DNA of 30,202 nt, from positions 1 to 30,202 of IMG/VR virus record IMGVR_UViG_3300009509_000078; one strand, 5' to 3'. This document shows positions 5,986-8,808 of this stretch, in pieces; the first letter of the stretch is position 1; each line of letters begins with the position of its first letter. The notes beneath the pieces are model-generated. The model saw only the letters and a list, made by a program, of their open reading frames with translations. It ran no database searches and was not told the DNA's origin. The position numbers and the translations under genes were made by a program. Origin of the DNA: a virus.

Positions 5986-7562
5986 TGGCTAATTTGCCAG
6001 AAACTATTTTTAAGCTTCCAACAGATCCTGAAGAATTTGGTGTTAAGCTACCAACTGCCAATCTTAGACGTATCAATTTTACTGCTCTCGAATTTGATAC
6101 GATCATAAGAGCCTGCGTCGAATATATCAAAACTTATTATCCAACGCAATTCAATGACTTTGTTGAAAATAATGGCATTGTTATGCTCATGGACGTACTA
6201 AGCTTTATGGGCTCAGCTATATCTGAGCGCGGCGATGTTTTAGTAAATGAATCGTTTTTACCAACTGCTTTTTCCGTTGAAGCAACAAATGCACATTTGA
6301 ATTTGATAGACGAATCATTACAAAGAGCTACCCCAGCAACAGTTGATATTGAAGTCAGTGTGTCAGTCGCATTGCCAACCGCGCTTAATATCCCTGCTGG
6401 GCTATCGTTTAATTTGACGGGAGCTGATGGCAGACCACTTACTTATGAGATCTACAAAGCGCCCGACAATTGGACCGACAGCATTCAAATCCCGCCTGGG
6501 AAGAGGGGAGTGATAGCCTTTGGAATTGAAGGCAAATTTGAGACACCATTTATCACAGTCTCGGCAGGAGGTCCGAATCAAGTTGTAGATATAATCAATG
6601 ATAATTATGTGTTGGCTAGCCCAATATTTGTTGATGTATCTAGTGGATCAGTTACCAATCGCTGGACAAGGGTCGATGTTATTGAACGATCTGATCCAAA
6701 TGATGAAGTCTATGAAATCGTACCAATAGAAGGAGGAGTTCGCGTTAGGTTCGGCGACGATGTGGCTGGAAAATCGCCATTATCAGGCGAGCAAATAACT
6801 ATTACATATAGAACTGGTGGCGGCTCTAGAGGGAAGATAGGATCGAACAGAATAAACGAAAATAGACCTTTCCAGCCAGATCCTCCGGCATCCGCTTCAG
6901 TTGAAGTTACATTCAGAAATCTAAATCCTTCTATTGGCGGCACGGATGAGGAATCCATCGATGCTGCTAAGAAAAGAGCCCCAAGACAGGCTGCCACGTT
7001 AAATGCAGCAGTTTCGGGACCAGACTACGCCGAATTGGCAACCGATTACTCACACCCAGTCTTTGGCACTGTGGCTAAAGCGGTAGCTGCTCTGAAGACA
7101 TCTCTCAATGCAAACATTGTTGAATTATATGTCCTAGCTGTTGGGGAGGATGAGCCAGTCAAGCCGAGTGTTGGCTTGAAGGAAGGCCTCAAAAACGATT
7201 TAGAGGAAAGGAATGTGATAACAGATGAGGTAAGGGTGCTTGATGGTGAACTGAAGAGAGTAGATGTTGATGCCAATATTGTTATAAGCAGAAATGCAGA
7301 TGCCGCGTTGGTAAAAGATAATGTAGATGATGCGATAACATCATTCTTTAGCTCATCAAATTTTAATATGGGACAAGAATTTTATCTATCAGATTTATAC
7401 GCCACTATTAAAAGCATAGACGGTGTGAAATTTGCCACAATCTTTGAGCCGAAGGACGACATTCTAGCAACCAACAGGCTGGCTTCAGACGATGAAGATG
7501 GAGTTGGTGTCAATGAATTAATTATCCTTGGCCAGACTAATCTAAGATTCTACTTTGAATAG
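5985..7562 (+). CDS. 6: Baseplate wedge protein gp6/J-like (Baseplate_J family)
   Basis: A protein of 525 residues starting at the ATG of a TAATG overlap with gp25. The N-terminus has the wedge-core helix region (RINFTALEFDTIIRACVEYI, then YPTQFNDFVENNGIVMLMDV), characteristic of gp6/J proteins. This is followed by beta-rich domains (about 110-270) and the motif YRTGGGSRGKIGSNRI, typical of the J family before its conserved ARK-type helical block (EESIDAAKKRAPRQAATLNA, near 325). Next come G-x-D-Y and a beta-alpha ferredoxin-like domain with PSVGLKEGLKNDLEERNVIT. Two copies per wedge form a ring around the hub and transmit the sheath contraction signal. T4 gp6 is 660 residues, so this is a compact version. 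Confidence 0.85.
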   Translation: MANLPETIFKLPTDPEEFGVKLPTANLRRINFTALEFDTIIRACVEYIKTYYPTQFNDFVENNGIVMLMDVLSFMGSAISERGDVLVNESFLPTAFSVEATNAHLNLIDESLQRATPATVDIEVSVSVALPTALNIPAGLSFNLTGADGRPLTYEIYKAPDNWTDSIQIPPGKRGVIAFGIEGKFETPFITVSAGGPNQVVDIINDNYVLASPIFVDVSSGSVTNRWTRVDVIERSDPNDEVYEIVPIEGGVRVRFGDDVAGKSPLSGEQITITYRTGGGSRGKIGSNRINENRPFQPDPPASASVEVTFRNLNPSIGGTDEESIDAAKKRAPRQAATLNAAVSGPDYAELATDYSHPVFGTVAKAVAALKTSLNANIVELYVLAVGEDEPVKPSVGLKEGLKNDLEERNVITDEVRVLDGELKRVDVDANIVISRNADAALVKDNVDDAITSFFSSSNFNMGQEFYLSDLYATIKSIDGVKFATIFEPKDDILATNRLASDDEDGVGVNELIILGQTNLRFYFE

Positions 7563-7579
7563 TATTTAAGGAGATAGCC

Positions 7580-7747
7580 ATGCCAGGCATGGATAAGACT
7601 GGCCCAGTTGGCAGAGGCCCTGGTATTGGGAAAGGGCGTGGAAAGAAAAAGGTGATCGGAGGTCAGGGTCGCAAGCGAGGCAAGGGCCGCAAATTTGGGC
7701 TTGGTGGCTTAATGGGAAAAGGATTCCTTAAAGGACCAAATCTGTAA
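7580..7747 (+). CDS. Small Gly/Lys/Arg-rich basic protein with DUF5320-like N-terminus
   Basis: A 55-residue protein with a strong ribosome binding site (TAAGGAGA) seven to eight bases before the ATG. It is almost entirely Gly, Lys, Arg, Pro and Leu. The N-terminus MPGMDKTGPVGRGPGIGKGR follows the pattern MPG-x-D-x-T-G-P-x-G-x-G-P of DUF5320, a family of short cellular proteins of unknown function found in anaerobic bacteria and archaea. The C-terminal half (GKGRKFGLGGLMGKGFLKGP) is a basic Gly-rich tail and lacks the aromatic/Cys residues many DUF5320 members have. The stop overlaps the next ATG (TAATG). It could bind DNA or RNA or be a minor virion protein. Recognition of the family rests on the first ~15 residues only. 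Confidence 0.7.
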   Translation: MPGMDKTGPVGRGPGIGKGRGKKKVIGGQGRKRGKGRKFGLGGLMGKGFLKGPNL

Positions 7748-7902
7748 TGCACGATGAAGAAGCATGCTCCGCTTGTGGCAAGCCAGCCAACGGATTTATA
7801 TTGGTCGACGGTTTATGGATATGTAATGAATGCGCCGAAAAAGCTGGGAAAACTATTCCACCCTTTAGGTCTGGCAAATCTGAAAGCAAGATCCCTCATT
7901 GA
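7747..7902 (+). CDS. 51-residue zinc-ribbon protein
   Basis: The ATG overlaps the previous stop (TAATG). The product has two Cys pairs, CSACG near residue 7 and CNECA near residue 26, separated by 15 residues with the pattern P-A-N-G-F-I-L-V-D-G-L-W-I. This is a standard zinc-ribbon spacing, close to the N-terminal ribbon of ClpX-type and small phage ribbon proteins. A short basic tail follows. Such peptides often contact nucleic acid or a protein partner, but no partner is named by the sequence. The stop (TGA 7900-7902) falls within another open frame, which may be a fused or separate downstream product (see next entry). Confidence 0.65.
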   Translation: MHDEEACSACGKPANGFILVDGLWICNECAEKAGKTIPPFRSGKSESKIPH

Positions 7903-8164
7903 TGTCTCGCCAGATGGAATAGACGTAAGAAATGTCACTGAAAAAGATGCGGCGAGGCCATTTCGTGGCGACTTATGGATTGGGTTCACGTTGCTTTGGG
8001 GGCACTTTAATGGCCCAAAGCAGAAGATTATGGTAATTACAGATGGCGAAGAGGTGTTACGCGTTGACTCCTCATATTATGAATCAATAAACAATCGCGA
8101 TAAATATCAAGTAGACCAAGTGTTGAAGAAATACGTACTGAATCAGCTTGAGGACATCTTTTGA
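7826..8164 (+). CDS. Hypothetical protein with unresolved start (possible +1 frameshift product)
   Basis: The part with convincing protein character runs from about 7901 to the stop at 8162-8164. It is a mixed alpha/beta protein of roughly 88 residues with GDLWIGFTLLWGHFNG, KIMVITDGEEVLRV and an ending KYVLNQLEDIF. No ATG, GTG or TTG lies in this frame near 7900. The nearest in-frame ATGs are at 7826 and 7754, both deep inside the zinc-ribbon gene in another frame. I list the 7826 start as the least overlapping one. Alternatives are a rare ATT start at 7898, or a +1 shift at the zinc-ribbon TGA that would fuse the ribbon to this domain. Function unknown. Confidence 0.4.
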   Translation: MNAPKKLGKLFHPLGLANLKARSLIDVSPDGIDVRNVTEKDAARPFRGDLWIGFTLLWGHFNGPKQKIMVITDGEEVLRVDSSYYESINNRDKYQVDQVLKKYVLNQLEDIF

Positions 8165-8165
8165 A

Positions 8166-8326
8166 GGTTCTGACGGGACGCTCTCTGGGATGGTCCAACG
8201 CAGCTGAGAAACGCTAAAGGAGACAACCTCACTGCGAGGTAACTCAAAAGTTGCGGATTGAGCCTGATGGCTCCTGGCTGCGTGGAAATACTGGAGAAGC
8301 GGCGGAGGGATTGACCTCCGAACCGT
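8166..8326 (+). ncRNA. Candidate structured non-coding RNA
   Basis: There is no credible reading frame here, but many helices can be paired by eye. A 7-bp stem ACGCAGC (8198-8204) with GCTGCGT (8277-8283) encloses AGGAG (8218-8222) with CTCCT (8271-8275), which in turn encloses two hairpins: ACCTC/GAGGT (8226-8230/8236-8240) and CTCAA/TTGAG (8243-8247/8258-8262). Downstream is the hairpin CGGAGG/CCTCCG (8303-8308/8315-8320). GGTTC (8166-8170) could pair with GAACC (8320-8324) to close the whole domain; this shares one base with the hairpin. The 5' bases GGTTCTGACGGG resemble the D-loop region of tmRNA, but no matching acceptor end or tag frame is seen. It could be an mRNA leader element or an independent RNA. 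Confidence 0.4.
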
Positions 8327-8346
8327 TATTCACCCCCCTTATACTT

Positions 8347-8389
8347 GCCAGGGCTGGTGCTTCGTGGAGTTCGATTCTCCACCCTGGCA
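8347..8389 (+). ncRNA. tRNA-like minihelix: acceptor stem plus T arm, no D or anticodon arm
   Basis: The geometry is exactly that of the top half of a tRNA. A 7-bp acceptor stem GCCAGGG (8347-8353) pairs with CCCTGGC (8382-8388), followed by a discriminator-like A. It is stacked directly on a 5-bp T stem TGGAG/CTCCA (8365-8369/8377-8381) with the canonical 7-base T loop TTCGATT, including the G53-C61 closing pair and R57-A58. Positions 8-48 of a tRNA are replaced by 11 bases (8354-8364). There is no CCA; TCA follows and then the ATG of the next gene. It may be a deleted tRNA gene, a functional tRNA mimic, or a leader hairpin controlling the downstream gene. Confidence 0.5.
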
Positions 8390-8392
8390 TCA

Positions 8393-8710
8393 ATGTGCGA
8401 CGTGTGTGACAAAAAAGAATGCCAAAATGAATTGAAGCACTTTGTCATCGATATGTTGTGGAAAGAACTTAAAGTTAAATATCCAAAGTTAGAAATAGAC
8501 GTGCACCCAAACTCATTGCATGTCATACGTGGCGACAACGTGAGCGATATGGTCTTGAAAATTTTGTTCGATGGCGATCGCATGGTGGTGTGGAGATGCA
8601 TCCCACGCTACAACAGTGACCCAGAAAAGATTTATGCAGCTGATCCAGAGTTTATAGCTAAGATATTTGATGTAATGGAAGGTAGGAGACCAGTCCCAAA
8701 ATGGAGCTAG
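8393..8710 (+). CDS. Hypothetical 105-residue protein with N-terminal Cys cluster
   Basis: I choose ATG 8393 because an upstream in-frame TTG would translate the tRNA-like helix. The product starts MCDVCDKKEC, a possible half metal site. An alpha/beta domain follows, with helix KHFVIDMLWKELKVKYP and strands LEIDVHPNSLHVIRG, MVLKILFDGDRMVVWRC, and ends with a helix and a Pro-Lys-Trp-Ser tail. The ATG lies three bases after the tRNA-like minihelix. There is no ribosome binding site at normal distance; the closest, TGGAG, is buried in the T stem 23 bases upstream. Translation may therefore depend on opening that structure. The stop overlaps the start of the next small gene. Family not recognised. 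Confidence 0.6.
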   Translation: MCDVCDKKECQNELKHFVIDMLWKELKVKYPKLEIDVHPNSLHVIRGDNVSDMVLKILFDGDRMVVWRCIPRYNSDPEKIYAADPEFIAKIFDVMEGRRPVPKWS

Positions 8711-8808
8711 AAATTGGTTGGAGACTGATGGTTGTATTGCTATGCGCAATAATTTGTTTTGCTTTTGTGATATTCGGCCATGCAGTTCAGAAATATAAGA
8801 AGCACTAG
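8701..8808 (+). CDS. 35-residue single-span membrane peptide
   Basis: The ATG is inside the end of the previous gene (10-base overlap), with AGGAG 12 bases upstream. The peptide has a short acidic N-terminus (MELEIGWR), one hydrophobic span of about 19 residues (LMVVLLCAIICFAFVIFG) and a basic tail (QKYKKH), predicting an N-out/C-in inner membrane peptide by the positive-inside rule. Its stop codon overlaps the stop of the convergent minus-strand gene. Small size and topology resemble phage membrane peptides such as holin-like, superinfection-exclusion or toxin-like peptides, but nothing in the sequence decides between them. Confidence 0.55.
   Translation: MELEIGWRLMVVLLCAIICFAFVIFGHAVQKYKKH

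Follow-up and report, generated by a model that had tools for sequence, protein, structure and literature searches.

A candidate small structured RNA with a tRNA-like minihelix in a gene-free gap of a phage tail region

The question raised by this locus is what a gene-packed phage sequence keeps in a long stretch that holds no gene. The window, by which we mean the whole stretch of DNA analysed, is a linear virus sequence of 30,202 bases that appears from its gene content to be a myovirus-like fragment, with tail/baseplate, ribonucleotide reductase, helicase, terminase, portal and head protease genes. In this sequence, a 136-aa gene that stops at 8164 and a 105-aa gene whose ATG is at 8393 lie 228 bases apart. 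According to the ORF lists, plus-strand genes elsewhere in the window are spaced by about 0-75 bases, and the next-biggest gap, of about 95 bases (8711-8804), has a short frame inside. Positions 8165-8346 carry stop codons in all six frames and form the largest gene-free gap seen in the window, in line with the non-coding stretch of the original prediction.

To compare this interval between genomes, we searched for relatives of the baseplate wedge protein, which returned the loci L002 (74% identity) and L003/L004 (66%) with a common gene order. The L003 and L004 sequences stem from two samples and are identical over 8005 bases. The L004 sequence recurred as L003, L005 (100% over 8005 bases), L007, L074 and L076, which were dropped as duplicates; those other than L005 come from the same two contigs. 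The L002 contig recurred as L010 and L075, and each distinct sequence was counted once. The family thus consists of three distinct members, the window, L002 and L004, with the RNA at the same place in all. Protein coding was rejected, since all frames carry stops in all three members' intervals: homologs with an intact coding sequence would have spoken against an RNA, and none of the three members codes across the interval. Cross-genome tblastn matches over the intervals were short and lay mostly on one hairpin, P5 (Table 1). In L004 the upstream ORF enters the 5' end of the RNA by about 11 codons (7534-7578, stop near 7576) and the remainder is non-coding; this run-in is absent from the window and L002.

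The genes around the RNA differ between members. The 136-aa upstream protein had no Pfam or PHROG match. The 105-aa downstream gene had no match in the searched stretches of L004, L005 and L007, and a zinc-ribbon gene stands downstream of the RNA in L004. In the window, a zinc-ribbon-like ORF (7747-7902) overlaps the 136-aa ORF (7754-8164) in another frame, and both match in L004; positions 7580-7747 encode a basic, glycine-rich 55-aa protein with a weak DUF5320 match, which occurs in L002 too. Directly upstream of the RNA in L002, and in this one of the three genomes only, lies a small ART-like gene (7466-7903) with weak PARP, KptA (RNA 2'-phosphotransferase) and ART-PolyVal matches, all under cut-off.

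Table 1 Predicted features of the RNA locus and its flanking genes (window coordinates)
Feature	Position	Strand	Remark
Upstream gene, 136 aa	7754..8164	+	homologue in 3/3 genomes
Structured RNA core	8166..8330	+	conserved in L002 7918-8085, L004 7542-7695
P1a 5' strand GGTTC	8166..8170	+	pairs 8320-8324 GAACC
P1b 5' strand TGACGG, within conserved CTGANGGGA	8171..8176	+	pairs 8323-8328 CCGTTA
P2 5' strand	8179..8188	+	window fold; 5/8 consensus pairs changed on both sides
P3 5' strand	8194..8204	+	window fold; similar helices in every member's own fold
P4: GAG/CTC flanking hairpin 8226-8240, loop AYTGC, then CTCAAA	8220..8245	+	
P4b hairpin GAGCC-TGAT-GGCTC	8260..8273	+	details not conserved
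P3 3' strand	8277..8286	+	window fold and members' own folds
P2 3' strand	8291..8301	+	window fold and three-member alignment
P5 hairpin GGAGG-RATKGA-CCTCC	8303..8320	+	
P1a 3' strand GAACC	8320..8324	+	partner of 8166-8170
P1b 3' strand CCGTTA	8323..8328	+	overlaps P1a 3' strand
Linker	8331..8346	+	CCWTATASTT common to window and L004
tRNA-like element	8347..8392	+	ends at next ATG
Downstream gene, 105 aa	8393..8710	+	present in L002

The segment 8165-8392 folds with an energy of -93.9 kcal/mol (z -3.71, 0 of 200 shuffles), and the core by itself reaches z -4.86 (0 of 200 shuffles). When 602 sliding 165-nt windows were each compared with 25 shuffles, some few within coding sequence scored z -4.6 to -5.4. 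Folding energy alone therefore does not set the core apart, and it is the comparison between genomes that lifts the core above chance. The L002 core alone folded barely better than its shuffles (z -1.47, 16 of 200 as good), and the long 3' region of L002 no better than shuffles (z +0.2). Folding energy does not fix the strand either: in L004 it is the reverse complement that gives the better fold (-6.0, against -4.7 for the forward strand).

For the comparison, the three members were aligned by sequence only with MAFFT. RNAalifold gave -29.4 against a column-shuffled mean of -13.6 (sd 3.3; z -4.8, 0 of 300), and member pairs taken singly gave z -3.1 to -4.2 (0, 1 and 0 of 300). P1a, P2, P4 and P5 together comprise 22 pairs, and 90.9% of the resulting 66 cells are paired. 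Changes on both sides occur in 9 of the 22 pairs across the three members against a shuffled mean of 3.8 (0 of 500), three sequences being too few for a formal covariation test. Sliding the partners lowered pairing from 90.9% to 33-51%, a control that somewhat favours the structure because the structure came from the same alignment. Conserved letters outside helices or at their tips are CTGANGGGA, TAAA, AYTGCG, CTCAAA and RATKGACC, and the strictly conserved loops include AYTGC, RATKGA, CTCAAA and TGANGGGA. In L002 the window RNA's 5' motif, TCTGACGGGAC, occurs once more between core and T-arm (8209-8219, 11 identical bases). The compensating changes bear out the earlier proposal of a structured RNA, and the core is almost certainly a conserved one.

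Within the core, the predicted helix 8198-8204/8277-8283 is present in the minimum-energy fold as part of P3. Another proposed helix, 8218-8222/8271-8275, is complementary but finds no support, as the fold pairs 8220-8222 with 8243-8245 and places 8271-8273 in a different hairpin. The consensus register of P2 is slightly off from the window's own fold. The P4 loop and CTCAAA are kept in all three members while the stem sequence varies; in P5 the inner five pairs are invariant in all three and the outer pair is C-G or U-A. We also considered whether the P5 loop might pair with CTCAAA, an idea dropped because the pairing is broken in L004.

The core can be closed in two ways. P1a, which the original prediction had listed as a possible closing helix, is supported by compensating changes: it has 5/5, 5/5 and 4/5 pairs in the three members, with differing sequences. 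P1b forms at least six pairs with none broken in all three, its fourth pair being C-G, U-A or G-C. The two share bases and are mutually exclusive as full helices, and both occur in every member. Judged by shuffled tails, the probability of chance occurrence is 4e-7 for P1a and 3.5e-4 for P1b, figures that assume independence and helix lengths picked after inspection. P1b is more stable than P1a by 4.4 (window), 10.7 (L004) and 7.4 (L002) kcal/mol. The pair of helices may represent a switch or stepwise folding in transcription.

A short way 3' of the core, the window carries an acceptor-like stem (8347-8353/8382-8388, 7/7 pairs), an 11-nt joint and a T-arm (8365-8381), followed by A8389 and TCA. 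The T-arm sequence, TGGAG TTCGATT CTCCA, is canonical and fits a TTCRANN loop; there is no D or anticodon arm in the 8347-8389 minihelix. A descriptor of this minihelix matched once in the window, and any match on either strand was found in 3 of 300 shuffled windows. We therefore consider the tRNA-like element that had been predicted here to be real, and the minihelix is probably a genuine tRNA-like element. A lone T-arm may arise by chance, and L002 has another within its reductase gene. Over the T-arm of its RNA locus, L002 has 19 bases identical to the window. In the two genomes these bases lie at unequal distances from the next ATG, and this speaks against protein coding as the reason for the identity. 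In L002 the element begins at 8295, some 200 nt past the core, and its best nearby acceptor has 6/7 pairs; several other acceptor strands fit equally well, and one directly behind the core, which would have meant a long insertion, was given up in favour of the closer 6/7 strand. L004 has at 7708-7741 a 13-bp hairpin with a GAAA cap, ending in ACCA (z -8.1); it lacks a T-loop, its length equals that of a stacked acceptor and T stem, and it shows one compensated change, G-C to A-U, relative to the window acceptor. Against RCCA, the 3' ends read ATCA (window), ACCA (L004) and TGCCA (L002). Core and element are separated by 16 nt in the window and 12 nt in L004. The suggestion that both form one RNA of about 225 nt agrees with their adjacency in these two members; in L002 the T-arm element comes some 200 nt later.

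We then compared the RNA with known families. At the gathering score the window had no match in Rfam 15, and permissive E-values returned matches at chance level only. ARAGORN found no tRNA or tmRNA in the window or in any of the six loci scanned. The original prediction had reported no match to GOLLD and ROOL, and their Rfam 15 covariance models likewise matched none of the three members up to E-values of 10 or 5. According to PMC12286853, GOLLD and ROOL are phage-encoded, tRNA-associated structured RNAs of unknown function. The present RNA resembles them as a structured phage RNA beside tRNA-like sequence, but GOLLD often exceeds 800 nt, compared with about 165-225 nt here (core 165), and GOLLD and ROOL lie near tRNA islands, whereas this RNA lies by tail genes in a window where ARAGORN finds no tRNA. 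A tRNA has four arms (acceptor, D, anticodon and T), of which the element has the acceptor and T only; a tmRNA has a tRNA-like domain around a tag ORF plus pseudoknots, and neither ARAGORN nor Rfam detected one here. The phi29 packaging RNA is a small structured phage RNA. The present RNA is similar to it in size, but no terminase gene lies in its neighbourhood and Rfam gives no match. A literature search that covered few subscription journals found no paper describing the present RNA. We class it as a small structured RNA of phages that is new and belongs to no named family.

PMC11143913 describes minihelices made up of an acceptor stem with T-stem and T-loop as established RNase P substrates, and the phage M3 and C4 RNAs as RNase P substrates as well. 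The model substrate likewise has the acceptor stem stacked on the T-arm without D and anticodon arms. In contrast to it, the present minihelix is natural and joined to a separate folded core, its cleavage being predicted, and compared with the 3' RCCA of the RNase P substrate a complete ACCA is found in L004 only. The window element does show the 7-bp acceptor on a T-stem with TTCRANN loop that is expected of such a substrate.

We favour, with a probability of roughly one half, a self-standing phage noncoding RNA in which a folded core is combined with a tRNA-mimic minihelix as a 3' processing or stability handle. The core of about 165 nt would comprise a closing helix, a long P2/P3 arm, a two-tier P4 (loop AYTGC) and a 3' P5 (loop RATKGA), with the acceptor-T minihelix shortly 3' of it. 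We searched 7900-8800 for a sigma-70 promoter and found no match. The RNA may therefore be made as part of the late operon transcript, and it would most likely be transcribed together with the late tail genes. The arrangement TTGACC...TATACT was dropped as a promoter, its spacer being 21-23 by eye and the search giving no promoter match. RNase P may cut before G8347, and host tRNA-processing enzymes may mature the 3' end near A8389; use of the minihelix by host enzymes would free the RNA or keep its 3' end protected. The conserved loops of the core could serve to bind a partner. The data show a conserved, covarying structure, the lack of a coding sequence and tRNA-like geometry; transcription, cleavage and action in trans are what we infer. 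The simplest role for the minihelix is that host tRNA enzymes use it to release the RNA or to protect the 3' end, because RNase P cuts such minihelices (PMC11143913), and a processing role is plausible though held tentatively.

Several other explanations were weighed against this one. The RNA could act in cis as a leader or riboswitch for the downstream gene that changes between a P1a and a P1b state, which would fit the mutually exclusive closing helices of all three members and the window element stopping at the next ATG. However, the downstream gene is not constant (the 105-aa gene in two of three members, the zinc-ribbon gene in L004), no intrinsic terminator (GC hairpin plus T run) was found on the plus strand of 7900-8800, a conserved expression platform was not seen, and no Rfam riboswitch matched; we regard such a leader as unlikely. 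The self-standing RNA is favoured over a one-gene leader because the neighbours change on both sides, with the ART-like gene upstream in L002 and the 105-aa match missing downstream in L004, while the RNA stays. A structured intergenic spacer with a minihelix between messages, acting only in mRNA processing or stability, is in keeping with a position between co-oriented genes and a tRNA-like part that adjoins the next start codon, but a spacer would need neither strictly conserved loops nor covarying helices, and we find this reading about as improbable as the leader.

The acceptor stem and T-arm, together with the extra sequence ahead of the L002 T-arm, might also be what is left, flanks included, of a tRNA or tmRNA gene that has decayed; the empty ARAGORN results for the window and all six loci, the lack of an Rfam match and a conserved, covarying core, which decay would not be expected to leave, make this very unlikely. 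We give just as little credence to a role in anti-defence or as a tRNA decoy, in which the RNA would occupy a host factor that targets tRNAs: the tRNA-like element is present and an ART/KptA-like gene (weak Pfam, under cut-off) adjoins the RNA in L002, but that gene is found in one genome of three, and the element lacks the anticodon arm, the usual target of tRNA-targeting nucleases. The boldest reading would be a new class of phage RNA switch with two exclusive closing helices and a minimal tRNA mimic, in which the fold adopted by the core determines what host tRNA enzymes do with the 3' end, be it to process, protect or load it; this we consider doubtful, more so than the leader.

To our knowledge, structured phage noncoding RNAs are few, and the large ones lack an assigned function. 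A small RNA with covariation support and a natural tRNA minihelix mimic would offer a compact system for test-tube experiments on its processing, its binding of a partner and its switching.

Searches for further members returned known sequences or matches judged to be chance. Pattern scans of 2.9 million viral contigs yielded no further member. One scan gave six matches, three of which (L006, L008 and L009) were read by eye as coding and rejected; L006 had E 0.0066 with the RNA model and was given no weight, because its set was picked by the same motif. In a second scan four of six matches were judged chance by eye, in a further one 8 of 11 were rejected as lying in frames of 166-1355 codons without a P4 stem, and in another all three were known contigs. 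Across 84,980 genome species, all 19 matches were judged chance with the P1 motif missing, and the three read fully were coding. The 105-aa protein search found no relatives, the ribonucleotide reductase alignment search found known contigs only, and GenBank phages showed no DNA match. The baseplate alignment gave 66 loci, and a descriptor run over 73 loci and the window found the RNA only in known ones; this descriptor misses L002, with its irregular P4 stem, and gave one weak match, L045, without CTCAAA. A covariance model was run on 45 sources, where it found no RNA in the remoter baseplate relatives searched, and on 34 more; L046-L073 were left out of this search. The best of these remoter relatives have wedge identities of 43-54%. 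Downstream sequence was read for the 11 nearest of them (L011-L016, L019, L036 and L043-L045), and in nine of these a minus-strand frame begins almost directly at the wedge stop. Two of the baseplate relatives, L019 and L021, lie on contigs of 185 and 341 kb, and the wider baseplate group thus includes very large phages.
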